Source: Flavobacteriaceae bacterium PS02337 (GTDB lineage: Bacteria; Bacteroidota; Bacteroidia; Flavobacteriales; Flavobacteriaceae). From it: a stretch of DNA of 64,000 nucleotides. Position numbers and translations under genes: made by a program. The notes beneath the pieces were generated by a model, which ran no database searches, was not told the origin of the DNA, and worked only from the letters and a program-made list of their open reading frames with translations. The stretch covers positions 220,616 through 284,615 of the forward strand of contig JASCOE010000007.1 of the NCBI GenBank assembly GCA_029959285.1, given 5' to 3'. Numbering within the stretch: the first letter of the stretch is position 1; each line of letters starts with the position of its first letter. Shown here in pieces: positions 10,646 through 25,996 of this stretch.

Positions 10646-10655
10646 AATTAAAACA

Positions 10656-10770
10656 CATTAATTTGTTACAGTTTGCCCACACCTTGCGGGCTTTCGGAAC
10701 AAAGGTGTTTCGGAAATCAAAGCACTCTAACAAACTGGCTGTCAAAGGCATTATTTGGCTGTCATTGGCG
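10656..10770 (-). promoter_or_regulatory. Leader of the traE operon with tandem TGACAGCC boxes
   Basis: On the minus strand, TGACAGCC occurs at 10764-10757 and again at 10744-10737, exactly 20 bases apart. The second box overlaps a TTTG that could be a -33 element, with GTGCTTTG about 20 bases further on as a -7-like element. A near copy of the whole leader, through to the ATG-proximal GTGTTTTAAT, lies before the next cargo gene at 11690-11800. Confidence 0.6.
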
Positions 10771-10791
10771 TTACAGTGTGTGTTATGTAAT

Positions 10792-10822
10792 AAAAAAACG
10801 CCAAACTTTTACGGTTTGACGT
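10792..10822 (-). terminator. Terminator after the 10844-11680 gene
   Basis: Arms ACGCCAAAC and GGTTTGACGT close a short loop, with a run of seven A bases on the left that reads as T on the minus strand. It lies just past the stop of the 278-residue cargo gene and separates it from the traE leader. Confidence 0.7.
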
Positions 10823-10843
10823 TGTCATGTATCATTAATTAGT

Positions 10844-11680
10844 TTACATTTTTCTCCCTCTTTTTTTTAGAGTTTTGTCGGTTTCAGGAATTTGTTTTTT
10901 TGATTGTAAAGTGTCCGGCTTTAATCGTTTTATATTTTCCTTGATGGTTTCGTCTATTCCTGTCTTCTGCCAAGGGATTAACTTTGCCTCGAAATGCAGT
11001 TTCAAACCTATTTCCTTTAAGTTTTGGGTTTCATTAAATCCGTGGTATCTGTTCCAGCCAATGGGATCTAATATCTGTTGATGTGGAAATTGTACAGCTA
11101 TAAGATCTTTTGGATATTCCGTAATCTTATCATAATCCAGTTCCTGAAATTGATGTGTTTTTGGATTGTATGGAATTATATAACTGTGTTCTTCTTCATT
11201 GAAATAATGGTCGATATCAGAAAAACAAATACCCAGAGTGGTAAAATCATCTTTTGGCCTCAGCAGGTCTATCCGAGCATCGGCAAAAAAAGTATGTCCT
11301 GCAATATCTAACGTCGGAAGATTTCCCAGACGGATACGTTTATGCAATGCATCCTGATCAACCATTAAATCAAAATCATCCTTTCCGGAAACATCTGCAA
11401 CATTATATTTTAATGCCATGCCCTCCGGGTCAAGTTTGACCAGGTCAGGAATTTTTACCGTTATTTTTTCATTACTGGAGAACAAATGCGGAATATTTTT
11501 TTCACTCAAACCATATTGAAAAGTATAGCCGTCTCCAACATCCCGCATATCAAAGATTGAGATAGTATTTTTGGAGTTTAACTTTTCCCGGAGTTCTAAT
11601 TTGTTTACATCGATAAGAAACTCTGTTCCCTCAATGTTAATTGTTGGTAATTCTCTTTTGTAGTCAGGTTCTTTCATCAT
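10844..11680 (-). CDS. Conjugative-element cargo protein with internal duplication, unknown function
   Basis: 278 residues, apparently soluble. Two halves repeat the same layout. Residues about 12-115 open with LPTINIEGTEFLIDV and end with KLDPEGMALKYN. Residues about 118-225 open with LPTLDIAGHTFFADA and end with ILDPIGWNRYHG. A basic tail (KKRGRKM) follows. I recall similar proteins as unnamed cargo of Bacteroidota conjugative elements, but no function is known to me. It has its own leader, nearly identical to that of traE, and its own terminator, so it is a separate unit probably co-regulated with transfer. Confidence 0.7.
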   Translation of the reverse strand: MMKEPDYKRELPTINIEGTEFLIDVNKLELREKLNSKNTISIFDMRDVGDGYTFQYGLSEKNIPHLFSSNEKITVKIPDLVKLDPEGMALKYNVADVSGKDDFDLMVDQDALHKRIRLGNLPTLDIAGHTFFADARIDLLRPKDDFTTLGICFSDIDHYFNEEEHSYIIPYNPKTHQFQELDYDKITEYPKDLIAVQFPHQQILDPIGWNRYHGFNETQNLKEIGLKLHFEAKLIPWQKTGIDETIKENIKRLKPDTLQSKKQIPETDKTLKKRGRKM

Positions 11681-11689
11681 TAAAACACT

Positions 11690-11800
11690 TTAATTTGTTA
11701 TTGTACTCACTCTTTGTGGGCTTTGTCAACAAAGATGTTTCAGAAATTAAAGCACTCTAGTAAAGTGGCTGTCAAAGGAATTATTTGGCTGTTATTGGCT
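11690..11800 (-). promoter_or_regulatory. Second copy of the tandem-box leader
   Basis: Minus-strand TAACAGCC at 11794-11787 and TGACAGCC at 11774-11767 are again 20 bases apart. The boxes are followed by AGAGTGCTTTAATTTC and finally GTGTTTTAATGATG at the start codon. The match to the traE leader extends over roughly 110 bases with scattered differences, indicating duplication of a regulatory segment rather than a chance motif. Confidence 0.6.
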
Positions 11801-11821
11801 TTGCATGACTTTTGAAACATC

Positions 11822-11850
11822 AAAAAAGCCAAACTTTTTATGGTTTGGCG
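11822..11850 (-). terminator. Terminator after the DNA methylase gene
   Basis: Perfect 7-bp arms GCCAAAC and GTTTGGC surround a 8-base loop, with an A run on the left that reads as a T run on the minus strand. It lies 37 bases past the methylase stop and marks the end of the defence-like cluster. Confidence 0.75.
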
Positions 11851-11886
11851 TATAATTTTTAGTTGTACAAATAGGTGTTTTTAAAT

Positions 11887-13728
11887 TTACAATCGAATAT
11901 TATAATAATCTTCTAAGAACGCATCGATTATATCCTGATTAGATTCATTAATTAAAAAATCAATATCATTATTAGTAAATTCAGGAATACCAAAATTCTT
12001 GATATATGTACCATTCAATGAATAATAATCTGATGAATATGGTTTACTTGTTGTTTTTATATAGTACCAAAACAAACGGGATTCCAAAATCTTCTTTACC
12101 AATAACATTTCCTCTTCTGAATGACCGACAATTGCCTGTCCATTGTAGAACAGCAAATCATCATCGTTGCTGATTAAATAACTTGGAATTCTGTCTGAAA
12201 ATTTAGGAAAAAATAATTTATTAGCAACTTTTTCCAAAGACTGCGTTCTTCCGAAGGCAAACCATTTTTCATATTTTCCTTTCCCTTTATCTCTTTCGGA
12301 TAAAATGGCTCTTTTCCTTTGTAGATATTCAAATGCCATAGGAAATTGGTTACTCAAAAACTCTTCATCAAGGGCTTTTGGTTTTATGTCATCATTATAT
12401 GGAAACAAGACCTTTTCTCTCACTGCATCAAAATCAATATTTCTACTCAATTTATTTGAGTTCAAAATATCTTTGCAAATTCCTTTCTCTATTGGGTAAA
12501 GATTCCCATTTTGCAAGTAAAAAAAATCTTCATCTTCTGCTACTGGCTTAAAAATATAAATGTCATTTTTTAATGTAGCAATGCCATGTCGAGTTTTATA
12601 TCTTTCCCCAAAAGGTCTACCTATAGCTTCTAGCCTGGATATAATTTCATTGTTATTTAAATTCCAACCCTTTTTTGCATCAAGATTTTTGTAATTAATT
12701 CTACTATATTGATTTCTATTAGTTGGAAATTCTTTATCAGTAGATTTATAATATTCGATATAATTCTGTTCCACTTTTTCCAAGAAACAAATGCAGGTGT
12801 AAGTGCTTTTTGATTTAAAAATCTGAAGAGTTCCAAAGTCAACAATTCTTATTGTAGCTCTATTTTCTTCAAAATAACTCCTTAAAGCTCTTCCATTTAA
12901 ACTTTTGAAAAAAGTATTCATTGTAATATAACCTAGAATACCATTTTCTGCAAGATTTTCATACCCAATTTGAAAAAAAGGAATATACAAATCAGGATTA
13001 CCCGATGTACTAACTGACCAATTCTTAATATTTTCTTTGGCTTCTACTTCTAGATTCCTTGCAGAAACATATGGTGGATTTCCTACAATAATTTCAAAAC
13101 CTTGGAAATTATCATAGATATTATTCCAATTAAATATTAAAGCATCACCTGTGTGGATATTAAAATGAAATTCTTCTACATCTTCACCTTCTGACAGTGC
13201 CAATAAACTTAATAGTAGCTTACTTCTGTTAACAGAATATTCTTGAATATCTAATCCAAAAATTTGGTGTTGAAAAATATGTGAATAGCTGCTGCCCGTT
13301 CTTCTTTTTAATTCTTTTGCGGCAGTATATAAAAAGCCTGAACAACCACATGCAATATCAGCGATCTTACAATGGTCTATTCTATAATTTTCTTTTTGGA
13401 AAGCCTGAGCAACAATATATTCTCTAATTTCGGAAGGTGTATATATCGCACCATTAACAATTCTATCTGAGGGAGATATAACAAATTCAAAAAGTTCAAT
13501 CAGTTTTTCAATATTAAAGTTTTGAACGACGTTTTTTATAATGTCTATAAACTTTAATAAATTATCTCTTTTTTGTGATCTTCGCTTTGATATTGAATAT
13601 TCTTTGAGGAGTTTGTTATTAATAAGATTCAGATTATTAATTTCAATAAAAGCAGACACAATAAGTTTGTCCACTTCTTTTGGAAGTGGTGAATAAAACT
13701 TTAAATATTGATGTATTTCTCTATTCAA
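11887..13728 (-). CDS. N6-adenine DNA methylase with TaqI-like specificity region
   Basis: 613 residues. The AdoMet-binding motif DIACGCSGFLY is at residues 124-134 and the catalytic NPPY is at 217-220. A VNGAIYTPSEIREYIV segment before motif I is typical of Eco57I/TaqI-type enzymes. The C-terminal 250 residues look like a target-recognition domain (GRPFGERYKTRHGIATLKN, then a SYLISNDDDLLFYNGQAI region). No nuclease motif precedes the methylase domain, so cutting would need a partner. Upstream on the same strand, beyond an IS4 element, is an HNH nuclease gene. Without the IS the two would be only about 40 bases apart, so they probably formed one operon. Confidence 0.88.
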   Translation of the reverse strand: MNREIHQYLKFYSPLPKEVDKLIVSAFIEINNLNLINNKLLKEYSISKRRSQKRDNLLKFIDIIKNVVQNFNIEKLIELFEFVISPSDRIVNGAIYTPSEIREYIVAQAFQKENYRIDHCKIADIACGCSGFLYTAAKELKRRTGSSYSHIFQHQIFGLDIQEYSVNRSKLLLSLLALSEGEDVEEFHFNIHTGDALIFNWNNIYDNFQGFEIIVGNPPYVSARNLEVEAKENIKNWSVSTSGNPDLYIPFFQIGYENLAENGILGYITMNTFFKSLNGRALRSYFEENRATIRIVDFGTLQIFKSKSTYTCICFLEKVEQNYIEYYKSTDKEFPTNRNQYSRINYKNLDAKKGWNLNNNEIISRLEAIGRPFGERYKTRHGIATLKNDIYIFKPVAEDEDFFYLQNGNLYPIEKGICKDILNSNKLSRNIDFDAVREKVLFPYNDDIKPKALDEEFLSNQFPMAFEYLQRKRAILSERDKGKGKYEKWFAFGRTQSLEKVANKLFFPKFSDRIPSYLISNDDDLLFYNGQAIVGHSEEEMLLVKKILESRLFWYYIKTTSKPYSSDYYSLNGTYIKNFGIPEFTNNDIDFLINESNQDIIDAFLEDYYNIRL

Positions 13729-13764
13729 TTACTGTTCTGTTTTTAGATATTTTAAATCACTTGC

Positions 13765-15099
13765 GTCCTAAACGTTTAAAAAGTGGCGGTGTTTGGATAT
13801 AGCAAAGTTGCTATATTTAAATTGCAAAATTATAACACACCGCCATGATAAATTTAAATGTTTTTAGTCAGATTTTATCTCTTATCGACCGCGAATTATT
13901 CAAAGATTTGGTTTCAAAGCACAAAAGTGACAAACATCAGAAAGGGATCAACAGCTGGACGCATCTAGTCAGTATGCTTTTCTGTCATTTTTCCTCGGCA
14001 GATTCGGTTCGTGATATTAGTAACGGTCTACGCAGTACCACTGGTAATCTGAACCACTTAGGTGTAGTAAGAGCTCCAAGTAAGTCTAATATATCCTATA
14101 TCAACACACACCGTACCCATGAACTTTTCAAAGATCTTTACTATTCTGTTTTGGATAGGCTTTGGCAAAAGGACACCCATTTTCGCAAAGATCTTGGTCA
14201 GCTAAAGCGTAAAGTATATCTGATGGATGCAAGCATCATCCCCTTATGTCTATCTGTATTTGACTGGGCAAAGTTTCGTAGCACCAAAGGTGCCGTAAAG
14301 CTGCACACTGTCTTGGATTATGATGGCTGCCTACCTGTTTTTATGCAGATTACCGATGGAAAAGTACATGAGAGCCAGCGAGCCGGTAGTTACAGTTTTT
14401 CCAAGGGAAGCGTGGTGGTAGTGGACCGTGGCTACGTGGATTACAGCTGGCTTGGGGATTTGGACAGCAGGGGGTGTTACTTCGTTACCAGGAGTAAAGT
14501 TAATATGAAGTACAAGGTTATCAAGTCCTATCAGAGTGAAGCACTCATGGAAAAGGGGATCCTTAAGGATGAGCTCATTGAGCTATCCGGTGCTGCCTGC
14601 AATAAATACAACGGCAAGCCGCTACGCCTAGTCCACTTTTGGGACAGCACCACTGGCAATGAGTACCACTTTTTGACCAATAATACGAAGTGGAAGGCTT
14701 CTTTGGTGGCAAACATCTATAAACAACGCTGGCATATCGAAGTCTTCTTCAAGCATCTAAAGCAGCGCTTAAAAGTATCGACATTCATAGGGACTTCTGA
14801 AAATGCAGTGATGATCCAGATCTGGACTTCACTCATTGGCATATTACTGTTAAAATACTTACAAAAAAAGGCCAAATATGACTGGAACCTGTCCAATCTG
14901 GTCGCATTCATCAGAATGAATATCTTCGTGAAAATAAACATCTGGCAATGGATAGATGATCCCTTTCTCAGGCCGCCTATAAAAGGAAAAAAGGGACAGC
15001 TAAAGATCTTCGCAGATTGAAAAATAGGGGTCAATATCGAAATGATGAAAAAAGCTATGCTTGTACCACAGAAATCCAATCCTAAAATTTATTTAGGAC
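13765..15099 (+). mobile_element. IS4-family insertion sequence
   Basis: A transposase gene is flanked by inverted GTCCTAAA (13765-13772) and TTTAGGAC (15092-15099). Weaker inverted similarity continues outward for about 18 more bases on each side (ATATTT, AAATCA, TG blocks), so the true ends may be nearer 13747 and 15117. No target duplication is evident. It sits between the HNH and methylase genes and reads opposite to them. The HNH stop codon lies inside the right terminal repeat. Confidence 0.75.
13845..15020 (+). CDS. IS4-family transposase (DUF4372 N-terminus)
   Basis: 391 residues. The N-terminal DUF4372-like domain (SQILSLIDRELFKDLVSK) is followed by a DDE nuclease: Asp in YLMDASIIPL, Asp in VVVDRGYVDY, and Glu in the YKQRWHIEVFFKHLKQRLK signature near residue 300. 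All three catalytic residues are present and the frame is intact, so the element could still move. Confidence 0.92.
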   Translation: MINLNVFSQILSLIDRELFKDLVSKHKSDKHQKGINSWTHLVSMLFCHFSSADSVRDISNGLRSTTGNLNHLGVVRAPSKSNISYINTHRTHELFKDLYYSVLDRLWQKDTHFRKDLGQLKRKVYLMDASIIPLCLSVFDWAKFRSTKGAVKLHTVLDYDGCLPVFMQITDGKVHESQRAGSYSFSKGSVVVVDRGYVDYSWLGDLDSRGCYFVTRSKVNMKYKVIKSYQSEALMEKGILKDELIELSGAACNKYNGKPLRLVHFWDSTTGNEYHFLTNNTKWKASLVANIYKQRWHIEVFFKHLKQRLKVSTFIGTSENAVMIQIWTSLIGILLLKYLQKKAKYDWNLSNLVAFIRMNIFVKINIWQWIDDPFLRPPIKGKKGQLKIFAD

Positions 15100-15653
15100 A
15101 CATATGATTTTAAATATGTAATAAACTCTTCCGATAAATCACTGTTCAAAATTTTTAAATCATTTTTAATTTTTTCATTTTTAGGATCATTAATTTGATC
15201 TCTAAGTTTAAGCATCTTTTCATACATTTCATCCAACTTCCATATTAAACTATACCTTCTCAAACCAAGTTGCAGTTTATTGAACATATAATTTGCTTCT
15301 TTTGATCCTGCCTTTGGAACTATTGAACCATCACTATCTCTCTCAAAATGATCATTAAAATCAACATCACAAGGGTCTATGTAATCCCCCTCATCATTAG
15401 ATTTTAAAATATTAACATAAGAACAACAATAAACTAAATTAGAATATTCTGTTTCAAGATTTGGATTTTTAGAAAATGGCTTAAAGTGATCTATATGAAA
15501 AGTATTTTTTCCGCCAAACCAAAAATCGGGACAATCTGTGTATCCACATCTGCAATTAAAATCTTTAGCTAAGTAAACCTTATAGCTTCTATAATTTTTA
15601 TATGCTTTTGTGAATGTCCTTGCGGGGATTTGGTATCTGAAATTACTTGCCAT
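15093..15653 (-). CDS. HNH endonuclease of the ATPase/receiver/HNH cluster
   Basis: 186 residues. A CRCGYTDC zinc-knuckle-like segment at about residues 35-42, FHIDHFKPFS near 52-61 and NLVYCCSYVN near 71-80 give the HNH arrangement (His in HIDH, Asn in NLVYCC, with Cys pairs that may hold structural zinc). The rest is helical. Its start overlaps the receiver gene by 11 bases, so translation is probably coupled. The last two codons and the stop fall in the IS4 terminal repeat, so the original C-terminus may have been slightly longer. It would be the DNA-cutting effector of the cluster (inference). Confidence 0.82.
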   Translation of the reverse strand: MASNFRYQIPARTFTKAYKNYRSYKVYLAKDFNCRCGYTDCPDFWFGGKNTFHIDHFKPFSKNPNLETEYSNLVYCCSYVNILKSNDEGDYIDPCDVDFNDHFERDSDGSIVPKAGSKEANYMFNKLQLGLRRYSLIWKLDEMYEKMLKLRDQINDPKNEKIKNDLKILNSDLSEEFITYLKSYVS

Positions 15654-16314
15654 CGTTATCTAATTTTTTAAGTAATTCATCTACCTTGTTCAATATATTG
15701 TCAAGACGTTGTGTATTTGAAAACGTCTTAAATTCAGTTGGAACAGAATGACTCGCATCAATAGATTTTTCTAGAAAATCATCTAATTCAATAATGCGAT
15801 TTTCAATCTTATAATCAGCCTTACCACTCTTTCTAACCTCTAATAATTCTTGCAATTCCTTTTGAGCTTCGGTAATTCTGGATTGATAATGCTCTATTTG
15901 TTTTATTAATCTATCAGTAAATTTCACTTTAGCTTTTGTATCCTCGATTTCAGTAGTCATTAAACTTTTGGTGTAAACCAAATTAACATCCTCACTATCA
16001 CTGACAGCATCTTGATCTTTAGCCGTTAAAACAAAACAAGGAAACTTGTGTCTAATTGCCAGAAATTCTTCTACTAATTCAACACCATTATAGGGAACAT
16101 TATATCCCAATGCTCCAATGTTCTCATTTAGTAAAAAATCACTGACTATCACATCTGGATTAGCTTTTAGTATTTTTTCAATCATTTCTTCCATATCTCC
16201 CAATGGAAGTTGTGGAACCACCTCAAAAATATTATTGGTGTTTGTATCATCAATATAATTTTGGAAGTTTTCTATTTGTTCTTGATCCTCATCAATATAA
16301 AGCAACTTGTACAT
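15643..16314 (-). CDS. CheY-like receiver protein with C-terminal coiled coil
   Basis: 223 residues. The first about 120 residues form a receiver domain: acidic pair in YIDEDQ, phospho-acceptor Asp in DVIVSDFLLNE near residue 57, Thr in CFVLTAKD, and a Lys in LVYTKS. There is an insertion around NENIGALGYNVPYNG. From about residue 125 the protein is a long heptad-rich helix (IEHYQSRITEAQKELQELLE), with no DNA-binding domain. It sits 8 bases after the ATPase/kinase gene and overlaps the HNH gene, so it is a natural phospho-relay link between them (inference). Confidence 0.85.
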   Translation of the reverse strand: MYKLLYIDEDQEQIENFQNYIDDTNTNNIFEVVPQLPLGDMEEMIEKILKANPDVIVSDFLLNENIGALGYNVPYNGVELVEEFLAIRHKFPCFVLTAKDQDAVSDSEDVNLVYTKSLMTTEIEDTKAKVKFTDRLIKQIEHYQSRITEAQKELQELLEVRKSGKADYKIENRIIELDDFLEKSIDASHSVPTEFKTFSNTQRLDNILNKVDELLKKLDNDGK

Positions 16315-16322
16315 AACTTTAT

Positions 16323-18302
16323 TTATTTTTTGTATTTAACAGGAAATGTAATCCTAAGTCCAAATCCAACTTCAGGATATAATAACTGTACCTTTCCATC
16401 ATTTTCATTTACTATTGATTTTATTAACCACATACCCAATCCTGTTCCTTCTTCTTCACCTGTATATTGATTCCTTCTCGTAGTAAACAATGGTTCAAAA
16501 ATCTTTTCAGGTTCAGTAATGTCCTTTGAAAGTCCTGGTCCATTATCGTGATAATCTATAATTATCCCTTTGTTGTTTTGTGTGATTTTAAGATTAATTT
16601 GTCTTGGTCTATTAACTTTTGAGATTATAAATGCATCAATAGTATTAACTAGTAAATTGTTAAAAATACTATCCAAATCAATTTCAAATATCCTCATATG
16701 GACATCTTCAACCTCTGATAAGTCATAGTTAATTCCTTTTTCATTTAATACAGTAAGCCAATCATTTTTATAATTTGTAAAATATGACTTAAATGATAAT
16801 TGTCTTCTAGTTCTTTTGTCTTTTCGAGTTGCTCCAAGAGAAAAATTTAGCCAATTTTGTATTTTGACATCCTGAACTTTTATGCGTTCAATAAGTTTAA
16901 ATGGATTTTTCCTGTCTTCTATTTGATCATATTCATTTTCTTGGATTTTTGAAATTAAAAGGTTTTTTAAGCGATCAGTTCTAACAGCTAACATATCATT
17001 TAGCTTACTTAAATCGTGACTAAATGAAGCTAAAACGATACCGCTACTAGCCAATGCCCTTAACATTTTCTGTTCTTCCTTTAACTTTTCTATTTCTTCT
17101 TCTTTTCGATCTAATTCTCCTGCAAGAATTTCTTTTTCTTTCTCGGCTTCGGACTCTTTTGAGTTTTCGTTATCATCTTTAACCGCATTAGGGTTATTTG
17201 CTGAAGCTTCTTTCTTAGCTCTACTTTTTGCTAATATTTCATTTTTGAGTTTCTCTGCCTTTTCTCTATCTCTTTCTGGACCATACTTGATGTCATCATA
17301 GTCAGCCATTTCTCGGGCAATGTATGATCTGTCTTTTTCAAATTCTGCAATTATTTGAGTAATAAGTAGAACAAATATTCTAAATGTCTTATTTTCCTGT
17401 AAACCTTCACGACTTGACTTATCTTCGAAATCTACATTTGTTAATCTTGAAATATTAACCGCACCTGCGACATTATCAGGCTCTACTTTGTACCCACCTT
17501 CCTTTTTAGCAACACTAGCAGGACTTTGAGCTTTTCTGCTACCTAATCCTAACCAATCAAATGCTACATTATTAACCTCCCCATAAGGTCTTACCCTAAA
17601 ATTATCTCTTACCAGTTTAATCCCGCCAAATTTATTCAACCAATCTCTTCTATCATTAGACATAAAACTTTTATTAAAGAATTTTTTTGTGTCTAATGAA
17701 TTTGACTGTCTTTTTAGAAAATAAAAGGAGAAGCTAAAAATCCCAATATTTTTGAAAGTATTATCCTCATCAATATCTTTGAAACCTTTTAATAGTTCAG
17801 AAAAAGTACTGGTCTTTTCCCAATATCCCTTAACAAAATCATTTTTCTTGTAATTATCTTTTTGCATCCCTTCTCTTTCAAAGAAATCACTAGGTATAAG
17901 CTCAATATCATACTCATTTCTATATATTTTTATTGTAACATTTTGATCATCATCAGCAGTAGCAACTAATTTGTAATCAAAATCATCACAAACAGATCCT
18001 AATACTTCTCCATACTTATTAGTAAATAGCGAACTGAATAGAAAAATTTCGAATCCACCTGCTTCCTTCGGTGGTACTAAAACTTCTAAATCATTGAAAA
18101 CTTGCTCAACAAAAAAATCTTCCCACTCATCCCTTAAATCAGTTATTTTTAAAATAGTACCAAATTTAAAATCCTTCTCAGATTCTATTTTTGTTAAATC
18201 TATCTGTGGTAATCTATTTAAAAGCTCATCTTTAATGGATTTAGAAGTTAACCCTGTTAATTTTGCTCCTACTTTCTCCGCTGATAAAAATCCTAAAAGG
18301 TA
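16323..18302 (-). pseudogene. C-terminal part of a double-ATPase sensor protein, cut off by an insertion
   Basis: The open frame runs from 18302 down to 16323 (659 codons). An ATG at 17867 gives 514 residues, but the frame continues upstream without a stop through YLLGFLSAEKVGAKLTG and breaks only at a TGA at 18303-18305. It carries a segment typical of HSP90/MORC-like ATPases (FRVRPYGE, then DFEDKSSREGLQENKTF), a coiled coil, an H-box-like SFSHDLSKL, and a histidine-kinase ATPase domain with N box NNLLVNTIDAF, DNGPGL, FEPLFTT and EGTGLGMWLIKSIV. Its missing front half lies at 24292-25065. The intact protein would be about 920 residues with two Bergerat-fold ATPase domains. Confidence 0.85.
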
Positions 18303-18304
18303 TC

Positions 18305-18340
18305 AAAACCCCCGAAATCCTATGATTTTCGGGGGTTTTT
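18305..18340. terminator. Strong bidirectional hairpin at the left element edge
   Basis: Arms CCCCCGAAA (18309-18317) and TTTCGGGGG (18327-18335) are flanked by AAAA and TTTTT. It lies within 10 bases of the break in the ATPase frame and would stop transcription across the junction in both directions. Confidence 0.8.
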
Positions 18341-18395
18341 GCTTTTGCTGACATACCAAATTATTCATAAAATCTTATCGCTAAAGGGACTAAAT

Positions 18396-18431
18396 CGAGA
18401 CCCTAGAAAAAATCAGAAATCTAGGGTCTCG
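18396..18431. repeat. Perfect 12-bp inverted repeat before the integrase
   Basis: CGAGACCCTAGA at 18396-18407 pairs exactly with TCTAGGGTCTCG at 18420-18431. Outside the arms, ACTAAAT on the left and GCTAAAT on the right form a near direct repeat. There is no T run, so it is not a typical terminator. A position 130 bases upstream of a tyrosine integrase and 90 bases from the element edge suggests a recombinase arm or core site. The remainder of 18341-18558 holds no gene. Confidence 0.5.
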
Positions 18432-18558
18432 CTAAATCTCTTTAACCCTTGTAAACATTGAGGTTAACGATGTGAAAAAGTAGCTCGTTCACTTATTAAA
18501 CATCTTGTTTGGCTTGGGAATGGATTTTAATTTGAAGAATAATTAACCAGTCAGTAAA

Positions 18559-19803
18559 ATGAAAGCGAAAGTAAACCTGCATATCTATGCAAAATCCACC
18601 AAGGCGAATGCCAAAGGGCAATTTCCAATTTATGTTCGTCTAACCGTAGATGGAAACAGAACCGAATTCAGCACTAAAAAATTTATTGAACCTTCCCGAT
18701 GGTCGTCAGAAGCATCTAAGGTTAAAGGTACAACTGAAGAAGCCCGTTCAATAAATAGTTACCTTGATGTAATAAAATCTAAAGTATTGGATATACAAAT
18801 GGAGCTAATTCATAAAAATCAAAATCTAAGTATTGAGAATTTTAAAGAATTGCTTTTCGGCTCTGATGAAAAACAGCGAATGCTTGTACCCATCTTTCAA
18901 GATCACAATAACAAGATAAAGGAATTGGTCGGAAAAGAATATGCTCCCGGAACATTAGAACGTTACGCAACTTCTTTAAAGCATACTATAGAGTTTTTAG
19001 AGTGGAAATACAATGTAACTGATATTGAGATTTCCAAAATAAACCACGCATTCATTACTGACTATGAATTTTATTTGAGAAGCGTTAGAAACTGTTCAAA
19101 TAATACGGCAGTAAAGTATATTAAGAATTTTAGTAAGATTATCAAGATTTGTCTTGCTAATGATTGGTTGGAGAAAAACCCATTTGCAAATTATAAAGCA
19201 AAAGTGAAAGAAGTTGAACGTGTCTATTTAACCGAAGAAGAAATTCAAGAAATAATAAAAAAGGATTTAAAAAACGACAGGCTTTCACTTGTTCGGGATA
19301 TTTTCCTTTTTAGCTGTTTTACAGGCTTGGCTTACATAGATGTGAAGAACTTGACCAAATCCCACATAAGTATTGGGATTGATGGGGAAAAATGGATTTT
19401 TACACATCGTCAGAAAACCGAGAGTGCTTCAAAAATTCCAATTTTGCCAGTTACTCAAATGGTAATTGACAAATATGAAAATCATCCGCAATGTGTTGGG
19501 GAAGATAAATTGCTCCCTATCCTATCCAATCAAAAAATGAATGCCTACCTAAAAGAAATTGCAGGAGTTTGTGAGATAGAAAAAGAATTGACCTTTCACA
19601 TTGCCCGACACACTTTCGCCACGACTGTAACGCTAACTAATGGAGTTCCGATAGAAAGCGTGAGTAAAATGTTAGGTCATAAAAATCTAAGAACTACTCA
19701 ACATTATGCAAAGGTTTTGGATAGAAAAGTGAGTGAGGATATGGAAGTTCTCAAAGAGAAATTTAAAATAAGTCCAAATTATATTGAAGCAGTTAATAGA
19801 TAA
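18559..19803 (+). CDS. Tyrosine recombinase, Bacteroidota conjugative-transposon type
   Basis: 414 residues with three parts: an arm-binding domain (about 1-90), a SAM-like core-binding domain (about 100-210) and a catalytic domain. Visible catalytic motifs are HIARHTFAT (His and Arg), MLGHKNLRTTQHYAKV (His and nucleophile Tyr near residue 391) and an internal Lys in HRQKTES. The position usually holding the first Arg reads CFTGLAYIDVKNL, so that Arg is missing, as is known for the IntDOT family. It probably moved the element that splits the ATPase gene. Confidence 0.92.
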   Translation: MKAKVNLHIYAKSTKANAKGQFPIYVRLTVDGNRTEFSTKKFIEPSRWSSEASKVKGTTEEARSINSYLDVIKSKVLDIQMELIHKNQNLSIENFKELLFGSDEKQRMLVPIFQDHNNKIKELVGKEYAPGTLERYATSLKHTIEFLEWKYNVTDIEISKINHAFITDYEFYLRSVRNCSNNTAVKYIKNFSKIIKICLANDWLEKNPFANYKAKVKEVERVYLTEEEIQEIIKKDLKNDRLSLVRDIFLFSCFTGLAYIDVKNLTKSHISIGIDGEKWIFTHRQKTESASKIPILPVTQMVIDKYENHPQCVGEDKLLPILSNQKMNAYLKEIAGVCEIEKELTFHIARHTFATTVTLTNGVPIESVSKMLGHKNLRTTQHYAKVLDRKVSEDMEVLKEKFKISPNYIEAVNR

Positions 19804-19961
19804 TTAAATATCTTTTAAAATGACCGTTGAATTAGATTGTCTTTGAATTTTTAAGATAAATCGCCTATATCCACAATTTCATATCCCTGCTGAAGTCAAG
19901 TCTTAAAGTCGTATTTTGATGTATGTTTTCATTTGCAGGGTGTTGTTCTAGAATTAAGCGG

Positions 19962-20975
19962 TTATTGTCGTTTAATCGCTTTTTTGCTCCCTAAAGTACG
20001 GAGGTATTCTAAAATCAAATGCACGCCCTCATCATGCGACATAGAAGTTCCTATCTTTGGCATGTGAAGTTCGCCTTTCGCTGTTATTCTCATTGCTATT
20101 TTGCCTTGCTTTTGCCATATCCCCGTATTATTAAATGGTGTTTCAGCCCTCAAATCCATTTGAGCCATATAGGCAATTCCCTGTGGGTTATGGCAGTGTG
20201 CGCAGTTAATATTAAGATAAGCCCTTGCCTTTGCTTCAATTGTTGCAGATGGATCATTATAATCCGTCATAGACAATAGTTTTTCGTTAGGTAAAATCTG
20301 GAGTTTGTTATGTTGCTTTAAATATTCTAATTGGTTTACCAGTTCATGATTTCGATTTATATCCATATTCATATTTTTGATTTTTAGTCCAATGGGTAAG
20401 AGCTCATTATCCTGGCGATGACATACAATACAATCAGTTCTAGAGGGAATTACGTAGTTTGTTGCGCGTTTTTTACCATTTTTGTCGATAAACGTGATAG
20501 GTGTAGTTTTGCCGTTCTGTGATAAATATGCTTCATTTTGCAATTCGTTCCATATATAAACAGCGGCATTCCATTTAGCTTTATATTTTATTAATACACG
20601 TGTTTCCAGCACAGATTTGATAATCTTATTGTTCTTTAGGCGACTGCCATAATAAAATGTTTTAGCAATAATGGTTCCGTCCGGAAATTGTGGCAGTCCG
20701 TTTGTCTTGGCTATCATTTTTTGTCCGTGAGGTAAAATAACGATTCTCTTTTTTTCAGCATAATCCGTAAATAATGTGGATGCTATTTCTACTGTAATTG
20801 CTTCAGTATTGGGTTTCAAATTTAACATTGGACCCTCAAAAAAATGATATTCAGATAGCTTTTCCTTAAAAATGATATTATATTCAATTACCGAATTTGT
20901 CCGTCGGTTATTGAGCATTATTATCAAAAATGGAACTAATAGCATTATAAATACAACGATATAAGATTTTTTCAT
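19962..20975 (-). CDS. Exported c-type cytochrome-like protein (HNE_0200-like family)
   Basis: 337 residues with an N-terminal membrane anchor (VVFIMLLVPFLIIML). Two CxxCH haem-attachment motifs are present: CIVCH near residue 182 and CAHCH near residue 266, the second in the NINCAHCHNPQG context I associate with the conserved family TIGR03806. It is probably periplasmic. The gene opens leftward near the end of the integrase cargo. No electron-transfer partner other than the nearby DUF420 protein is visible. Confidence 0.7.
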   Translation of the reverse strand: MKKSYIVVFIMLLVPFLIIMLNNRRTNSVIEYNIIFKEKLSEYHFFEGPMLNLKPNTEAITVEIASTLFTDYAEKKRIVILPHGQKMIAKTNGLPQFPDGTIIAKTFYYGSRLKNNKIIKSVLETRVLIKYKAKWNAAVYIWNELQNEAYLSQNGKTTPITFIDKNGKKRATNYVIPSRTDCIVCHRQDNELLPIGLKIKNMNMDINRNHELVNQLEYLKQHNKLQILPNEKLLSMTDYNDPSATIEAKARAYLNINCAHCHNPQGIAYMAQMDLRAETPFNNTGIWQKQGKIAMRITAKGELHMPKIGTSMSHDEGVHLILEYLRTLGSKKAIKRQ

Positions 20976-21091
20976 ACTTGTGAAAATATTAGAATAATTT
21001 AATGATACTTGAAAGCCAAAGTTTCACAAAAAGGTATCGGTAATATCCCGTCATTTGTGCGAAACGCTTCGCCATGAAATAATCTCGTTAG

Positions 21092-21349
21092 GATGAAGAA
21101 AAAGTATGCTGGAATTTCAATATCATAGCTTTTCGTTCCGATAGAAAAATAACCTTCCCCTTAATCGATGAACAAGATTTTATAAAAGTCTCTCGTGTTG
21201 GGTTACATATAACTATCGCAGACTATTTCGTCACTATCTGCCACAAAAATGAAATAATCTCTGTTAACTGGAATATTGGATGGAAAGTCTTAAAGTTGTT
21301 GAATATCTGCCAATTGCTTTATATTATCTTAAAACAATGCTTCGGATAA
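21092..21349 (+). pseudogene. Possible decayed coding fragment
   Basis: In the 394-base gap 20976-21369 one frame is open for about 85 codons without an ATG, ending in TAA at 21347-21349. It reads plausibly as protein in the middle (ITFPLIDEQDFIKVSRVG, then VTICHKNEIISVNWN). I do not recognise it. It may be the end of a lost gene; chance is also possible in AT-rich DNA. Confidence 0.25.
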
Positions 21350-21369
21350 TTTGCTGCATTTTAATAGTT

Positions 21370-21909
21370 TTACTTATAGTAAGGTGAAATTAATAAATAT
21401 ACAATCACGCCAGTTAAGCTAACATAAAGCCAAATTGGCATTGACCAGCGGGTAATTTTTCTATGAAGTGCAACTTCCATATTTAAACCTCTGCCTATAG
21501 ATATAAGTGCCAGAGGAACCACTATTATGGCAAGTATGACATGTGTAATTAATATTACGTAGTATGCATATTTTACAAAACCCACACCTCCAAATTTTGT
21601 TGATGGCGTAGTAAAATGATACAATAAGTATGATAACAAAAAGACTGATGTAGACAAAAATGCGGCAAAGATAAAATTACGATGCCTTATGATTTTCTTT
21701 TGCTTGATAGCATAGAGTGCAAGTAAAAGAAATAAAAAGGTTGCCCCATTCATTATAGCATTCAATAGTGGCAAAAATGAGAAGTCATATTCTTGAAGAC
21801 TCTCTCTTTTGGGAAGAAAAAAGGATAATGTAATAAGCCCATTGATTCCCAAACCCAAAGCCCAAACCCATGGTTTGTAATTCCTGATAATTATTCTGTT
21901 GTATTCCAA
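21370..21909 (-). CDS. DUF420 membrane protein
   Basis: 179 residues with five predicted membrane helices. The NAIMNGATFLFLLLALY segment, the RHRNFIFAA loop and a conserved His in YLLYHFTTPSTKFGG match DUF420, a family linked to haem-copper oxidase biogenesis. It follows the next membrane gene by 43 bases on the same strand, so they form a pair controlled from the TetR divergent region. Confidence 0.8.
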   Translation of the reverse strand: MEYNRIIIRNYKPWVWALGLGINGLITLSFFLPKRESLQEYDFSFLPLLNAIMNGATFLFLLLALYAIKQKKIIRHRNFIFAAFLSTSVFLLSYLLYHFTTPSTKFGGVGFVKYAYYVILITHVILAIIVVPLALISIGRGLNMEVALHRKITRWSMPIWLYVSLTGVIVYLLISPYYK

Positions 21910-21952
21910 AATGAAGTTTTAAAAGTTATTAATTGTTTTTCTGTTAATTGAA

Positions 21953-22417
21953 TTAAAAAGGTCTAAAATTTGGTCTGCTCGCCAATGGAGAGAATGACCA
22001 AGGGATTGATGTTAGTATGATTATAAGCCCAACTGTAAACCATAGAGCCTCAGTCTTAAATTTTTCGACATCCATTTCCTTTCGTTTTGCCTTAGCAGAA
22101 CCAATAGAGATAACAATGATTGCTATAAACATCATAAAACTGTGTTCCATCCCAAAAAAGCGGATTTCCCTTTGATGAACAGCCTCGTTATAATTATGAA
22201 TGAAAAAGTTAGTGATTGGACTTATAAAATAAAGCCATAAACCTAAAATAAGTTGTATATGAGATATTGTTGCTGTCCAATGCCGTAACAAATTATCAAA
22301 TTTTGAAAAGTCACGTTTGAGAAACCAACCCCGATAAGCACAAAAAATTGACAGGAGCAGGCTTATAAGCACAAACCATCTATTTAGAGAATGTAATGCT
22401 AAAACGGTTGAATACAT
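21953..22417 (-). CDS. Four-helix membrane protein, cytochrome-b-like in annotation habit
   Basis: I choose the ATG at 22415-22417 (MYSTVLALHSLNRW, 154 residues). The longer frame to 22522 would add a polar stretch that runs across a TetR-type operator. Four hydrophobic helices with conserved-looking His residues (LALHSLNRW, LLRHWTATISHIQ, GMEHSFMM) suggest a haem or redox membrane protein. I recall similar flavobacterial proteins labelled cytochrome B without experimental support. It shares a transcript with the DUF420 gene. Confidence 0.65.
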   Translation of the reverse strand: MYSTVLALHSLNRWFVLISLLLSIFCAYRGWFLKRDFSKFDNLLRHWTATISHIQLILGLWLYFISPITNFFIHNYNEAVHQREIRFFGMEHSFMMFIAIIVISIGSAKAKRKEMDVEKFKTEALWFTVGLIIILTSIPWSFSPLASRPNFRPF

Positions 22418-22456
22418 AATAAACTGTAATTTGTGTGACAAAAATACATAAAAAAC

Positions 22457-22470
22457 ATACCAATCGGTAT
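22457..22470. promoter_or_regulatory. Palindromic operator in the TetR divergent region
   Basis: ATACCAATCGGTAT is a near-perfect palindrome (ATACC/GGTAT). It lies between the membrane pair and the divergent TetR gene, where such a regulator would control both. Confidence 0.5.
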
Positions 22471-22602
22471 CTTTACAATAATTTTCTAAAAACTCAATTA
22501 ATAAGCTTAACATTACCCACAACCATAGAATTTTTATAACCTACATAGAGCTTGTATGAGCGGGTTCAATTTTGTTCCTTTGCAAACTAAATATTGATCT
22601 AA

Positions 22603-23193
22603 ATGAAAAAAGCAGCGGCTACACGCTTAACTATTCTACAAAAAGCATTTGATTTAATTTATGCTAGAGGATATCAAACTACAAGTATCGATGATATCAT
22701 AGCCACAACACAAGTAACAAAAGGAGCATTTTATTACCATTTTAAAAATAAAGATGAAATGGGAATTGCCATAATTAACGAAATCGTAAAACCGATACTT
22801 ACGAATAGCTTAATCATACCTCTGCAAAATGAAAAAGATCCATTAAATGGTATTTATGCTTTAATAAATAATCTTTTATTAGATAATGATTTGCTAAAGG
22901 TAGAATATGGATGTCCTATTTCAAATTTTACACAAGAAATGAGTCCTTGGAATTCAGAGTTCAATAATGTATTAAGTAAATTGTCACAGGAATGGATAGA
23001 AAAAATGACCGCAACTATTGAAAATGGGAAAAACGAAGGATACATACGCAAAGAAGTAAATGCAAAACAAGTAACAATATTTATTATTTCCGGCTATTGG
23101 GGAGTTAGGAATTTCGGTAAAATAGAAAATAGTAATAGAGTATATTTTCACTATTTAAGGGAACTCAAACACTATCTTGAATCATTGAAATAA
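22603..23193 (+). CDS. TetR-family transcriptional regulator
   Basis: 196 residues. The N-terminal helix-turn-helix is typical (ILQKAFDLIYARGYQTTSI, then VTKGAFYYHFKNKDEM). The C-terminal ligand domain resembles TetR_C members with a GCPISNFTQEMS segment. It stands between the divergent membrane genes and the carbonic-anhydrase-like gene; palindromes on both sides are probable binding sites. Confidence 0.92.
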   Translation: MKKAAATRLTILQKAFDLIYARGYQTTSIDDIIATTQVTKGAFYYHFKNKDEMGIAIINEIVKPILTNSLIIPLQNEKDPLNGIYALINNLLLDNDLLKVEYGCPISNFTQEMSPWNSEFNNVLSKLSQEWIEKMTATIENGKNEGYIRKEVNAKQVTIFIISGYWGVRNFGKIENSNRVYFHYLRELKHYLESLK

Positions 23194-23206
23194 TTTTTTT
23201 ATTCAA

Positions 23207-23241
23207 AAACATACAATTTAGTATGTTTTTAAGTAACTTTG
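23207..23241 (+). promoter_or_regulatory. Operator and -7 element before the carbonic-anhydrase-like gene
   Basis: AAACATAC (23207-23214) and GTATGTTT (23221-23228) form a perfect inverted repeat, immediately followed by TAACTTTG (23234-23241), an exact Bacteroidota -7 element 25 bases before the start codon. An operator overlapping the promoter core fits repression by the adjacent TetR protein. Confidence 0.6.
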
Positions 23242-23266
23242 TCAATTAATTTTAAAAAATTTAAAA

Positions 23267-23845
23267 ATGACAAAATTTAGCGAATTCGAATTCAGAAATA
23301 TTCCTGGATTTGACCAAAACAATTTTCAAGGATTAGACCAAGCAATTCCAATGAAAACAATTGTTATCTATTGTTTCGATCCCCGAGCTTCGGAAATTCC
23401 GATGGCTGTAGCCAACTATTTAGGCGATGAAGTTTACCCCGGAGAAAATATTGTTGATGAAAACGGTGTTCGAATGGGTCACACCCGAACACTATTTACT
23501 ATGTCAAATGGAGGCGGTCGTGCACTTCAGTCGCTTCAAACAATAGCAACAATGGATTATCTATTCAATTATAAGAATATTGTTATAGTACATCATTCAT
23601 TTTGTGGTATGACTTCTTATACTCCTGAATTACTTATTGAAAAATTTCACGATCGTCATCATGTTGATATTTCAGGCATGTGGTCTCATGAAGATATGGC
23701 AATAGTTGATTACGAAAAGACCATTAAACATGATGTCGAACTACTTCGCAACAGTCCTATCGTACCAAAACATCTTAATCTCTATGGGTTTTTCTACGAA
23801 ATAAATTCAGGTCAATTGACTGAAGTCGTTCGTGATATTGCTTAA
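23267..23845 (+). CDS. Beta-carbonic-anhydrase-like protein
   Basis: 192 residues. The motif YCFDPRA (Cys-x-Asp-x-Arg) near residue 35 and HHSFCGM (His-x2-Cys) near residue 105 reproduce the zinc ligands and catalytic dyad of beta-carbonic anhydrases. The rest is divergent, so the substrate is uncertain. It is a single gene with its own promoter and terminator. Confidence 0.7.
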   Translation: MTKFSEFEFRNIPGFDQNNFQGLDQAIPMKTIVIYCFDPRASEIPMAVANYLGDEVYPGENIVDENGVRMGHTRTLFTMSNGGGRALQSLQTIATMDYLFNYKNIVIVHHSFCGMTSYTPELLIEKFHDRHHVDISGMWSHEDMAIVDYEKTIKHDVELLRNSPIVPKHLNLYGFFYEINSGQLTEVVRDIA

Positions 23846-23868
23846 GAGGAAAACGTATAATATTTTTA

Positions 23869-23901
23869 TGGAGCGATCTTGGAAATATTGGTCGCTCCAT
23901 T
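23869..23901 (+). terminator. Terminator after the carbonic-anhydrase-like gene
   Basis: Arms ATGGAGCGA and TCGCTCCAT enclose a 14-base loop and are followed by TTTG. It ends the single-gene transcript 24 bases past the stop. Confidence 0.7.
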
Positions 23902-23961
23902 TGTATTAATTATGGATTTGTCTCAATCACCATTTTGAACAATCCAAAAAATAATTCAAAT

Positions 23962-24372
23962 ATGATTTTAGATATAAAAGTGCCTGATAGCAGTATTGCG
24001 CTTCAGGCTGAGGAGTTTGCCCGCTCTGTATCCGATGATATGTTATTTAATCATGTCATGAGATGTTATTATTTTGGGGAACTACTTGCAAAGCAAGCGA
24101 ACATAAAGGTTGATAGAGAATTGATGTTTGTATCATCAGTTCTACATGATCTTGGTTTTACTGAAGCTGGGAAAGGAACAAATCGTTTTGAAATAGAGGG
24201 TGCTAATGCAGCCCGAAAATTTCTTTTGGAACGAGGTGTAGAAGAAAATCGGACATGGAAAGTATGGCATAATATTGCACTTCATGTGGGAGACCTCTTT
24301 ATCTATAGTTTTAAAATCACCTTCGAAGTCCTCCCAATTAACTACCCAATTGTATCCTGTGAAATTTGTTAA
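23962..24372 (+). pseudogene. HD-domain phosphohydrolase, truncated at the element edge
   Basis: The preferred start is the ATG at 23962 (MILDIKVPDSS); an upstream TTG at 23935 is possible. HD-domain signatures are present: His in FNHVMRCYYFGELL and the HD pair in SSVLHDLGFT. The family-like sequence ends near WHNIALH (about 24283). Beyond that the frame reads the reverse of the ATPase gene and is meaningless to its stop at 24372. The gene has therefore lost its 3' part at the insertion junction. Confidence 0.7.
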
Positions 24373-25065
24373 TTTACCCTCTATATCTGTGTCAGGTTTG
24401 TGAATTTCAGGATCAGGATTGAAAATTGTGGTCATTTCACATTTACTCCCTAATTTATCTAATGCAAACCTACCGATGCCTTTAGCTCCTGATTTTACTC
24501 TTCCTTGTCTAGTGAAAATGTTATTTGCTTTATTATCAGTACCTATAGTCATCCAGTGATCCCTAATAATATTCTGAGTCATACCTTCTCCAAAATCAAT
24601 AACATAGAGAGCTGCAAATTTTGATATCAGATTTTTAAATAGCTGTATTTTTTTTTCTTCAATTTCAATTTTTAAAGAATTTTGATCTTCATCACTTTCA
24701 CACTTTGTCGAAAGAGTTTCTTTTGATATACCCAGTTCTATAAGACCTGTAAAATTAGTTATATCAATTTCTTGGTTTAGAGTATAGTAACCTTCATCGC
24801 TATTAAAAATATAAATTGCTTCAAGAATTTCTTTAGAGACACCAAAGTTCATTAATCCCTGAAAGTGTTCTTCCTCTATTTCATTCAAAAAGGTAGAATA
24901 CTTGTTATCAAAATAGACAATACAAACTTTACTATCTGCATCATAACTATTTTTGACAAGTTCAATAATCGCTCCTTTTGAACTCGCAACATTTTCACGT
25001 CCAATTAGCCTTGCAGTTCTAGCTGAAACTTTAAATGGAATTATATCAGTATTGTTGTCTTCCAT
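24292..25065 (-). pseudogene. N-terminal part of the double-ATPase sensor protein
   Basis: The ATG at 25063-25065 (MEDNNTD) is preferred over a TTG at 25071. The roughly 258 residues hold a complete GHKL/HSP90-type ATP-binding core: IIELVKNSYDAD (N box), VIDFGEGMT (G1) and GAKGIGRFALDKLGS (G2 lid), as in MORC and other HSP90-like proteins. Native sequence ends at GDFKTIDKE. The following residues come from the inserted element. Joined to 18302-16323, it restores one protein of about 920 residues. The start lies 2 bases after the XRE gene stop. Confidence 0.82.
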
Positions 25066-25067
25066 TC

Positions 25068-25268
25068 TCAATCATTAAAAAGGTTAGTAAGCTTAACATC
25101 TAACAATTCAGCAACTTTTACAAAGGTTTTAATAGGAGGTTGGACCTCATTTGTACACCATCTTGATATAGTGGCTTCATTTTTACCTAACTGTTCAGCT
25201 AGCCACTTGCTACTCATATTCTTCTCTGCCAATACTACCTTAAGTCTATTAATTGCCTTTTTACTCAT
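25068..25268 (-). CDS. XRE-family helix-turn-helix regulator
   Basis: 66 residues forming a single HTH_3 domain: KWLAEQLGKNEATISRWCTN is the recognition region. Small Xre/Cro-like proteins of this kind commonly control restriction-modification and defence operons (the controller or C-protein role). It is the first gene of the minus-strand cluster and its stop lies 2 bases before the ATPase start, so it is probably autoregulatory for the whole operon. Confidence 0.88.
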   Translation of the reverse strand: MSKKAINRLKVVLAEKNMSSKWLAEQLGKNEATISRWCTNEVQPPIKTFVKVAELLDVKLTNLFND

Positions 25269-25360
25269 AAAAATTGCATATGGTGTAAAGATATTGATTT
25301 TTTTAATTACAATTGAAAAGGTTCAAAATATGTTTTTATATCACAAAAAAGGAGCTTGCT

Positions 25361-25996
25361 TCACACAAACTCCCCAATATCAAAATCATTCAAATCACTT
25401 TTCCGCAAAGTGGAAGAGCTGGTTTCCGTTTCAGATGAAAGAGTACTGTCCAAAAGCTCGGCAATTCTTCGGGAAGCACCCTCCATTGAACTTTCCAACA
25501 AGCTGAATAATTCGGTTCCCTGTAATCTTTGAACTATGTCTACCGCTGTTTCCTTTTGGGCTGGTTCCAAATTCTCTTTTTGCAGCAACACCCCCACGGA
25601 GCTTAGTTCTTCAAAGGTAACCCCTTGGGCATAACCGTTATCACTGCTGGATATTCCGTACCTATTCCATTCTTCTTCCTCTTCCTCCAAATCAGGCATA
25701 TTACTGAAAACATCGTCCAGCTCTTCCTGCGGAATTTGAATATTGACTTCTTCGTTCTCGTCGTATTCAATGTCTAAATTATCAGGATTTATCTCAGCGT
25801 CCTGTATTTGGCTTTCATTGGCGGTGTTTGACTGCGAAAGGCTTTTTACAGGCTTTGGTTTACCCATGATTTCGGGCAAATCGGGTGCAGAAGAGACTTT
25901 ATCTTCTTTTTTATAGCTAATCTTATTAATGACGACTTTCTCACTCACTAAAAGAATGATGACTATAAAGAGGCATATAACTATTACAATTTCCAT
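25361..25996 (-). CDS. traD: TraD, conjugal transfer protein
   Basis: 211 residues. It has an N-terminal membrane helix (IVICLFIVIILLV), a long acidic, low-complexity middle (EELDDVFSNMPDLEEEEEE), and a C-terminal helical domain. The layout and position next to the DUF3408 and ParA-like genes match TraD of CTnDOT-like elements. Function is not known. Confidence 0.8.
   Translation of the reverse strand: MEIVIVICLFIVIILLVSEKVVINKISYKKEDKVSSAPDLPEIMGKPKPVKSLSQSNTANESQIQDAEINPDNLDIEYDENEEVNIQIPQEELDDVFSNMPDLEEEEEEWNRYGISSSDNGYAQGVTFEELSSVGVLLQKENLEPAQKETAVDIVQRLQGTELFSLLESSMEGASRRIAELLDSTLSSETETSSSTLRKSDLNDFDIGEFV

Follow-up and report, generated by a model that had tools for sequence, protein, structure and literature searches.

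A 64,000-nucleotide stretch of Flavobacteriaceae bacterium PS02337 (contig JASCOE010000007.1, positions 220,616 to 284,615; hereafter the window) carries genes for a double-ATPase histidine kinase, a receiver protein, an HNH nuclease and an N6-adenine DNA methylase. We found that these four genes form a conserved operon, and we propose that the module restricts foreign DNA under phosphorelay control, a reading to which the sequence evidence leads us to assign a probability of roughly 55%. The first-pass annotation of the window had listed the four genes and an upstream XRE regulator as a candidate defense cluster. All five are present at the places it gave, as confirmed by open reading frames (ORFs), strands and spacings; the distances it gave between genes (gaps of 2 and 8 bases, an overlap of 11 bases) were right. 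The window genes, two of which are affected by insertions, are as follows (aa, amino acids; L072, an uninterrupted copy from a second Flavobacteriaceae genome).

25068..25268, minus strand: XRE/Cro-type helix-turn-helix (HTH) regulator, 66 aa, accessory (Pfam HTH_26, E = 1.1e-9)
24297..25065, minus strand: 5′ part of the gene for the double-ATPase kinase, encoding its N-terminal GHKL ATPase domain (HATPase_c_3, E = 2.2e-11; aligns to uninterrupted relatives; boundary from L072)
16323..18278, minus strand: 3′ piece of the ATPase gene, with the middle domain and its RDxFRVRPYGE motif, the His helix and the catalytic HATPase_c domain (HATPase_c, E = 1.1e-12)
15643..16314, minus strand: receiver protein, 223 aa, a REC domain and a probably helical tail (Response_reg, E = 2.7e-4, under the curated cut-off)
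15093..15653, minus strand: PtuB-like HNH nuclease, 186 aa, with insertion sequence (IS) DNA in place of its last codons (PADLOC PtuB, 9.5e-16; Pfam HNH, 1.2e-3, under the cut-off)
11887..13728, minus strand: N6-adenine DNA methylase, 613 aa, TTG start, as in L072 (Eco57I, E = 3.3e-29)

An ATPase-only search of 84,980 species genomes, using an alignment of five uninterrupted ATPases, returned 461 relatives, and the neighborhood counts refer to the best 80 of these; all five query proteins were taken from loci in which the set had been seen beforehand. The receiver gene follows the ATPase gene directly, within 120 nt, in 80/80 loci (three partial). The contigs of L031, L036 and L065 end before the HNH gene, and the HNH and methylase counts are therefore out of 77. 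An HNH gene follows the receiver gene in 77/77, and a methylase gene lies beside the set in 77/77, being within 400 nt downstream of the HNH gene in 74 and just upstream of the ATPase gene in 3 (L026, L041 and L084). The downstream methylases comprise 41 of the window type and 33 of a second type, which carries an M_Eco57I_C domain in both members scanned. Median junctions measure 1, −4 and −4 nt, and the receiver and HNH genes overlap in 57/77, a figure that may be overstated because starts were set at the first possible codon. These counts set chance aside as the cause of the clustering.

Searches started from the other genes bear on the same point. Across 395 genomes of the order, a receiver search recovered the source genome, four more true copies, each with all four genes in succession, and one false hit. 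An HNH-started search matched 54/395 genomes of the class at E ≤ 1e-5; six matches were strong (E < 1e-40), the next best being E = 6e-15, and the full set is present in 6/6 of them. Among 24 other HNH-match loci, with flanks of about 1.5 kb, a receiver was found in none and a weak ATPase match in one (L147). Strong matches occur in 5/395 genomes of the order, 6/395 of the class and 5/395 of the phylum, in samples that overlap and that each include the source genome. The first-pass annotation had proposed asking whether homologs are neighbors elsewhere or scattered; in the best 80 ATPase relatives and in 6/6 strong HNH hits they are neighbors. One candidate, L007/L012 (receiver match 8.5e-5), was rejected, as by eye it is a run of glycosyltransferase-like genes.

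The XRE regulator, which had been counted as part of the set, was rejected as a core component: a homolog lies just upstream of the ATPase gene in only 20/77 loci with upstream sequence, and five more have a different short HTH-like ORF by eye. The window's XRE protein matches the PADLOC models PDC-M64C (3.4e-8) and RmrA (4.5e-6) through its HTH, probably by shared fold only.

The residues on which a phosphorelay and a nuclease would depend are conserved. HATPase_c_3 at the N end and HATPase_c at the C end occur in one protein in 40/40 ATPase relatives scanned, and the N-terminal GHKL motifs are invariant in 40/40. In 80/80 loci a histidine aligns with H429 of the window ATPase (P0002); the N-box Asn of the kinase and several Gly residues in its ATP-binding motifs are likewise present in all 80. 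The ATPase family profile matches solved histidine kinases across the dimerization and catalytic domains and sets this histidine over that of HK853; presuming the role of the HK853 histidine, we read H429 as a phosphoacceptor-type residue. In the receiver, Asp59 is present in 77/77, Thr97 in 75/77, Lys116 in 76/77, Asp8 in 74/77 and Glu9 in 73/77 (the short ORFs of L031 and L065, at contig ends, and of L037 are left aside), and the family profile matches the PhoP receiver in the PDB at 5.6e-6. The HNH residues D55, H56, N72, N81 and K84 are invariant in 76/76, leaving aside L057, whose HNH lies in two short ORFs; the methylase of L063 is also in two ORFs. Such invariance is as expected of a working phosphorelay and nuclease, and the parts of the uninterrupted relatives look functional. 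The 76 aligned HNH proteins form two subtypes, with Cys (41) or Thr (33) at position 39, Cys (41) or Val (32) at position 80, and 32 of them have Cys at position 41; in the window's subtype the presumed zinc site seems to have been rebuilt.

Restriction enzymes are commonly portrayed as permanently active, restrained by methylation alone. For this module we infer phosphotransfer, a triggering signal, receiver control of the HNH nuclease and anti-phage activity along the following lines. By modifying its sites, the methylase would mark DNA as belonging to the host. The N end of the ATPase, a MORC/MutL-type GHKL domain, would serve as a presumed DNA- or complex-sensing clamp, joined to a complete histidine kinase module at the C end. 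When unmarked or phage DNA is met, the clamp would change state and the kinase would phosphorylate its own histidine; the phosphate would pass from this histidine to the receiver aspartate, and the phosphorylated receiver would release or activate the HNH nuclease, which would then cut the DNA. The receiver shows no DNA-binding output domain, and its gene often overlaps the HNH gene. If true, a His-Asp phosphorelay gating restriction would join two normally separate signaling worlds, would account for the presence in restriction operons of MORC-type ATPases with kinase ends, and would offer a testable case of foreign-DNA sensing by MORC-type clamps.

The two-component proteins might instead regulate expression of the restriction-modification (RM) pair, leaving nuclease activity alone. 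This has been proposed in general terms for relatives of HEF_HK, a kinase-like family taken up below (PMC8011034, in the part available), and an XRE gene does stand upstream in some copies of the module. No DNA-binding domain, however, occurs among the 16 Pfam families matched by 67 receivers, and the receiver tail yields only weak matches to coiled or helical proteins. We regard expression control as very improbable.

The methylase type differs between related cores. Parsimony on an ATPase tree of 81 rows, made quickly and with some long branches, gives at least 9 changes of methylase type. Among 398 HNH pairs of at least 50% identity, 169 have different methylase types; conversely, L023 and L068 have methylases 94% alike beside ATPases, receivers and HNHs that are 46%, 33% and 52% alike. 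From these comparisons we infer that the methylase has been exchanged between cores, which would speak against an HNH nuclease bound to the methylase's site and for a core working with different methylases. The window methylase itself has 18 to 21% identity to that of the first relatives found and belongs to the other lineage. The idea that it is a stranger brought in with the IS was rejected, as 41/77 relatives share its type and L072 has it without the IS.

Methylase exchange bears on whether the operon is a plain type II RM system, with the HNH protein as a sequence-specific endonuclease matched to the methylase and with the ATPase and receiver merely assisting, for example by MORC-like DNA looping or by tuning of cutting. 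A separate HNH gene and an N6 methylase gene in one operon are what such a system would have. ParaMORC proteins are linked to restriction operons and DNA looping (Iyer 2008, PMC2292703, in the text available), the 40 ATPase relatives give only weak REase_II-type and similar PADLOC matches (REase_II in up to 16/40), and the window's N piece weakly matches the BbrUII/HgiDII restriction enzyme family (8.5e-6). A matched nuclease should, however, co-evolve with its methylase, yet methylases 89 to 94% alike stand beside HNHs 52 to 55% alike, and methylases of different type accompany cores about 60% alike. It would also be hard to explain why proteins that merely assist keep invariant active sites in kinase and receiver, and we consider a plain type II system unlikely.

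The HNH family raises a further alternative. At least one PtuB model matches 59/59 HNH members (PDLC00337 in 59/59) and the retron model HNH_I-A matches 53/59; a model labeled PtuA1 also matches 43/59 HNHs, which looks like a labeling matter. The module might accordingly be a Septu- or retron-like abortive nuclease, in which the kinase and receiver sense infection and free a rather nonspecific HNH to degrade the nucleic acid of cell and phage alike, with the methylase shielding host DNA or adjusting the trigger. Detocs, in which a two-component system drives an ATP-degrading effector, is a precedent for such wiring (PMC11249213, in the part available). No PtuA model occurs, however, among the matches of the 40 ATPases, and the adjacency of a methylase in every locus that could be counted suggests marking of self and non-self DNA. 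An abortive nuclease of this type seems to us quite unlikely.

Several observations weigh against phosphorelay-gated restriction. Both the receiver and the HNH of the window score under the curated Pfam cut-offs, and just 27/67 receivers reach Response_reg at E ≤ 0.01. Judged by ORF lengths, none of the 80 loci has a REC-HNH fusion, which would have been the strongest link between the two proteins. Among HNH pairs of at least 70% identity, 0/23 differ in methylase type; this weakens the exchange argument and favors a type II system. That the N-terminal domain senses DNA is presumed by analogy, and receivers can act without kinases (PMC8195603, in the part available). A Rhizobium plasmid (L016) has receiver and HNH with a broken ATPase ORF and no methylase by our two methylase models, and 40/80 records are marked as metagenome-assembled genomes (MAGs).

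The module spreads on mobile elements. On one side of the window cluster lie a DUF4134 protein (traE type) and TraG, and on the other a DUF3408 protein and a ParA-type ATPase; a traD-like ORF at 25361-25996 has no Pfam match. With the tra gene names (traD, traE) taken as our presumption at this locus, the earlier description of the cluster as cargo between traD-like and traE genes holds (window 10340-25996). The operon occupies the traD-traE slot of L053, L072 and L079 as well, making four elements including the window, which suggests a cargo slot of this conjugative element family; some tra match is seen in 11/80 loci. A direct repeat of about 185 bases, 79% identical, occurs at 10636-10822, just upstream of the traE start and running into it, and at 11668-11851, just past the methylase stop; a 278-aa ORF between the two copies has no Pfam match.

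Carriers include conjugative elements, plasmids and viral contigs. On plasmids of Salipiger (L014), Ensifer (L013), Deinococcus (L249) and Bacteroides finegoldii (L250), the ATPase, receiver and HNH genes stand together, with a methylase beside the core by model or annotation. In a Klebsiella copy (L015), an annotated N-6 methylase lies upstream and is unmatched by the two methylase models; a megablast search of E. coli genomes with this copy found none. The 80 loci are labeled with nine named phyla, to which the Deinococcus plasmid adds one more; six of the nine are represented by MAG records only, the exceptions being Bacteroidota, Pseudomonadota and Bacillota. The window receiver had no match among phage records. 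HNH patterns made from one sequence found nothing in viral contigs, where the ATPase alignment found 78 loci.

The window copy was broken after its arrival. The 5.7-Mb source genome has a single match to the window stretch. L072, from Flavobacteriaceae bacterium PS02338, aligns with window 6980-33041 as three blocks, 99.4, 99.97 and 100% identical, and lacks two window pieces, 18279-24296 and 13758-15106. These insertions are outside the system:

18279..24296, plus strand: inserted element of about 6 kb with an integrase, splitting the ATPase gene (absent from L072; 7-bp shared end)
18559..19803: tyrosine integrase within the ~6-kb element
13758..15106, plus strand: IS4-type insertion (DDE_Tnp_1, 2.4e-25; absent from L072; 9-bp shared end)
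13845..15020: transposase of the IS4-type insertion

The near identity of L072, free of both insertions, indicates that the window cluster arrived as one uninterrupted operon within a conjugative element and took both insertions afterwards. The comparison also revises three details of the first-pass annotation. It had rightly recognized two ATPase pieces, whose true edges, at about 24297 and 18278, lie a few bases inside the limits it claimed. It had placed the IS between genes, with a gap of about 40 bases across the site; the IS in fact sits inside the last HNH codons, keeping 182 of the 188 residues of the L072 protein, and the L072 methylase ORF starts at the base after the HNH stop. Before the IS the HNH is identical to that of L072 (182/182 residues), as is the whole methylase (613/613). 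With its ATPase split, the window copy probably no longer works as a gated nuclease; its methylase ORF is whole.

The ~6-kb element also holds a weak cytochrome-like ORF (19962-20975), an ORF that is TetR-like by eye (22603-23193) and a 192-aa ORF (23267-23845) with no Pfam match. Elsewhere, the ATPase ORF is broken into three ORFs in L015, a Klebsiella variicola plasmid, and into two in L016, a Rhizobium phaseoli plasmid; loss of the kinase with retention of the other parts may recur, or these may be sequencing errors.

The viral-contig relatives place the operon in a wider set of kinase-receiver loci. Receiver and HNH are adjacent in 18/78, all with ATPase scores of 1e-102 or better. By the models, a methylase is present in nine of these 18, downstream in six and upstream in three. 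Another eight carry, upstream, a gene of 420-458 aa with an N6-type NPP[FY] motif, and the L174 contig stops at the HNH. The contig of L187 ends at the ATPase, L244 has no ATPase ORF, and the module's HNH is adjacent in 0 of the other 58 loci. The HNH was found in none of 25 weaker hits (L102-L126), which were covered with flanks of only about 1.5 kb.

In 52 of those 58 loci the gene downstream of the ATPase encodes at least 200 aa, and a receiver-like acidic pair near the N end is present in 52/52 of the products, versus 24/350 other ORFs, by a pattern (an acidic pair after a hydrophobic stretch) that was written post hoc on the same proteins. Pfam gives weak support for Response_reg in 3/5 such genes (L190, L203 and L241; not L197 or L217). 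By Pfam, the product of the next gene is a metallo-beta-lactamase-fold protein in L190, and in L241 it is a Vsr nuclease. Immediately upstream of the ATPase, 18 of the 58 loci have a gene with an N6-type motif and 7 have one with a C5-type motif, both motifs being short and not specific. In L189, L190 and L192, an upstream gene with an N6 motif and a receiver-like protein of 227-228 aa are followed by a protein of 333-340 aa. The kinase-receiver loci of L181, L186, L203 and L217 lie beside integrase-like and repressor-like ORFs, in surroundings that by eye we take to be P2-type prophages.

These loci suggest, tentatively, a large and as yet unnamed defense class with the operon as one of its branches, a possibility that we rate somewhat short of even. 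The MORC-kinase and receiver would form its fixed switch, combined with an interchangeable methylase conferring self recognition and specificity (two N6 lineages here, C5-type elsewhere) and with an effector released by the receiver, which might be the HNH, a metallo-beta-lactamase-fold enzyme, a Vsr nuclease or the C-terminal part of the receiver itself. The HNH would then lack sequence specificity, and the phosphorelay would time its cutting.

Among described systems, the HEF_HK (PF19191)/Response_reg_2 (PF19192) pair is the one closest to the module. These kinase-like and receiver-like genes were linked by prediction to restriction-modification, with HNH_2 and other HNH domains reported nearby (Bellieny-Rabelo 2021, PMC8011034, in the part available). 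As in our module, HATPase_c_3, a kinase core and HATPase_c lie in one protein, a receiver-like gene is adjacent and a methylase is nearby; the middle-domain motif RDxFRVxPYG is common to both. The families differ, however: at E ≤ 0.01, PF19191 matches 0/40 ATPases and PF19192 matches 0/67 receivers of the module, whereas the positive control L163 scores 7.1e-20 and 5.2e-32, respectively. Response_reg_2 had no match in the source genome, and HEF_HK had none in 100 genomes of the family, a search in which the control genomes were silent too. In five loci of the published type the methylase is C5-type by eye, the ATPase measures 958-986 aa and the receiver protein 542-598 aa, and nothing matches the module's HNH family. 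The C-terminal parts of these receivers (L163-L167) look alike, with no named domain in the one scanned, and may hold an effector.

ParaMORCs likewise place an N-terminal GHKL domain beside methylases and nucleases, HNH included (PMC2292703, in the text available), a likeness borne out here by the intact GHKL motifs and the adjacent methylases counted above. The module's protein adds a full histidine kinase, with a receiver encoded next to it, and the word "receiver" has no occurrence in the available text of that paper. Type II RM systems with an Eco57I-type N6 methylase share the methylase family and a linked, separate nuclease gene; the module differs in that its cutting enzyme is apparently controlled by a kinase and receiver.

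With Septu PtuAB and retron I-A the module shares its HNH family. It differs from Septu in having a GHKL kinase as its ATPase, with no PtuA model among the matches noted above, and in including a methylase and a receiver; to our knowledge, Septu has no methylase. Nor do we know of a methylase or an HNH nuclease in Detocs. Detocs resembles the module in using two-component proteins in phage defense and differs in comprising three genes and, in its best-described form, an ATP-degrading effector (PMC11249213, in the part available). No Detocs model appeared among the PADLOC matches of the window proteins or the 40 ATPases, in searches that named no Detocs model specifically. PADLOC labels the window methylase MTase_II and the HNH PtuB-like; in PADLOC 2.0 the ATPase pieces are unmatched and the receiver is matched only weakly (0.098).

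No paper naming the four-gene set was found, a weak negative in literature that was covered only in part. The first-pass view of an undescribed cluster stands for the gene set, which is unmatched in PADLOC, in HEF_HK/Response_reg_2 and in the literature searched. It does not stand for the idea: the HEF_HK/Response_reg_2 cousin was published earlier as a prediction (PMC8011034, in the part available), and DefensePredictor names HATPase (histidine kinase-like ATPase) and REC (receiver domain) among the domains of its predicted, unvalidated systems (2026; PMC13092281, Fig. 6F legend). Within the literature searched, it is the gene set and not the idea that is undescribed, and the module is a variant of a kind so far only predicted.

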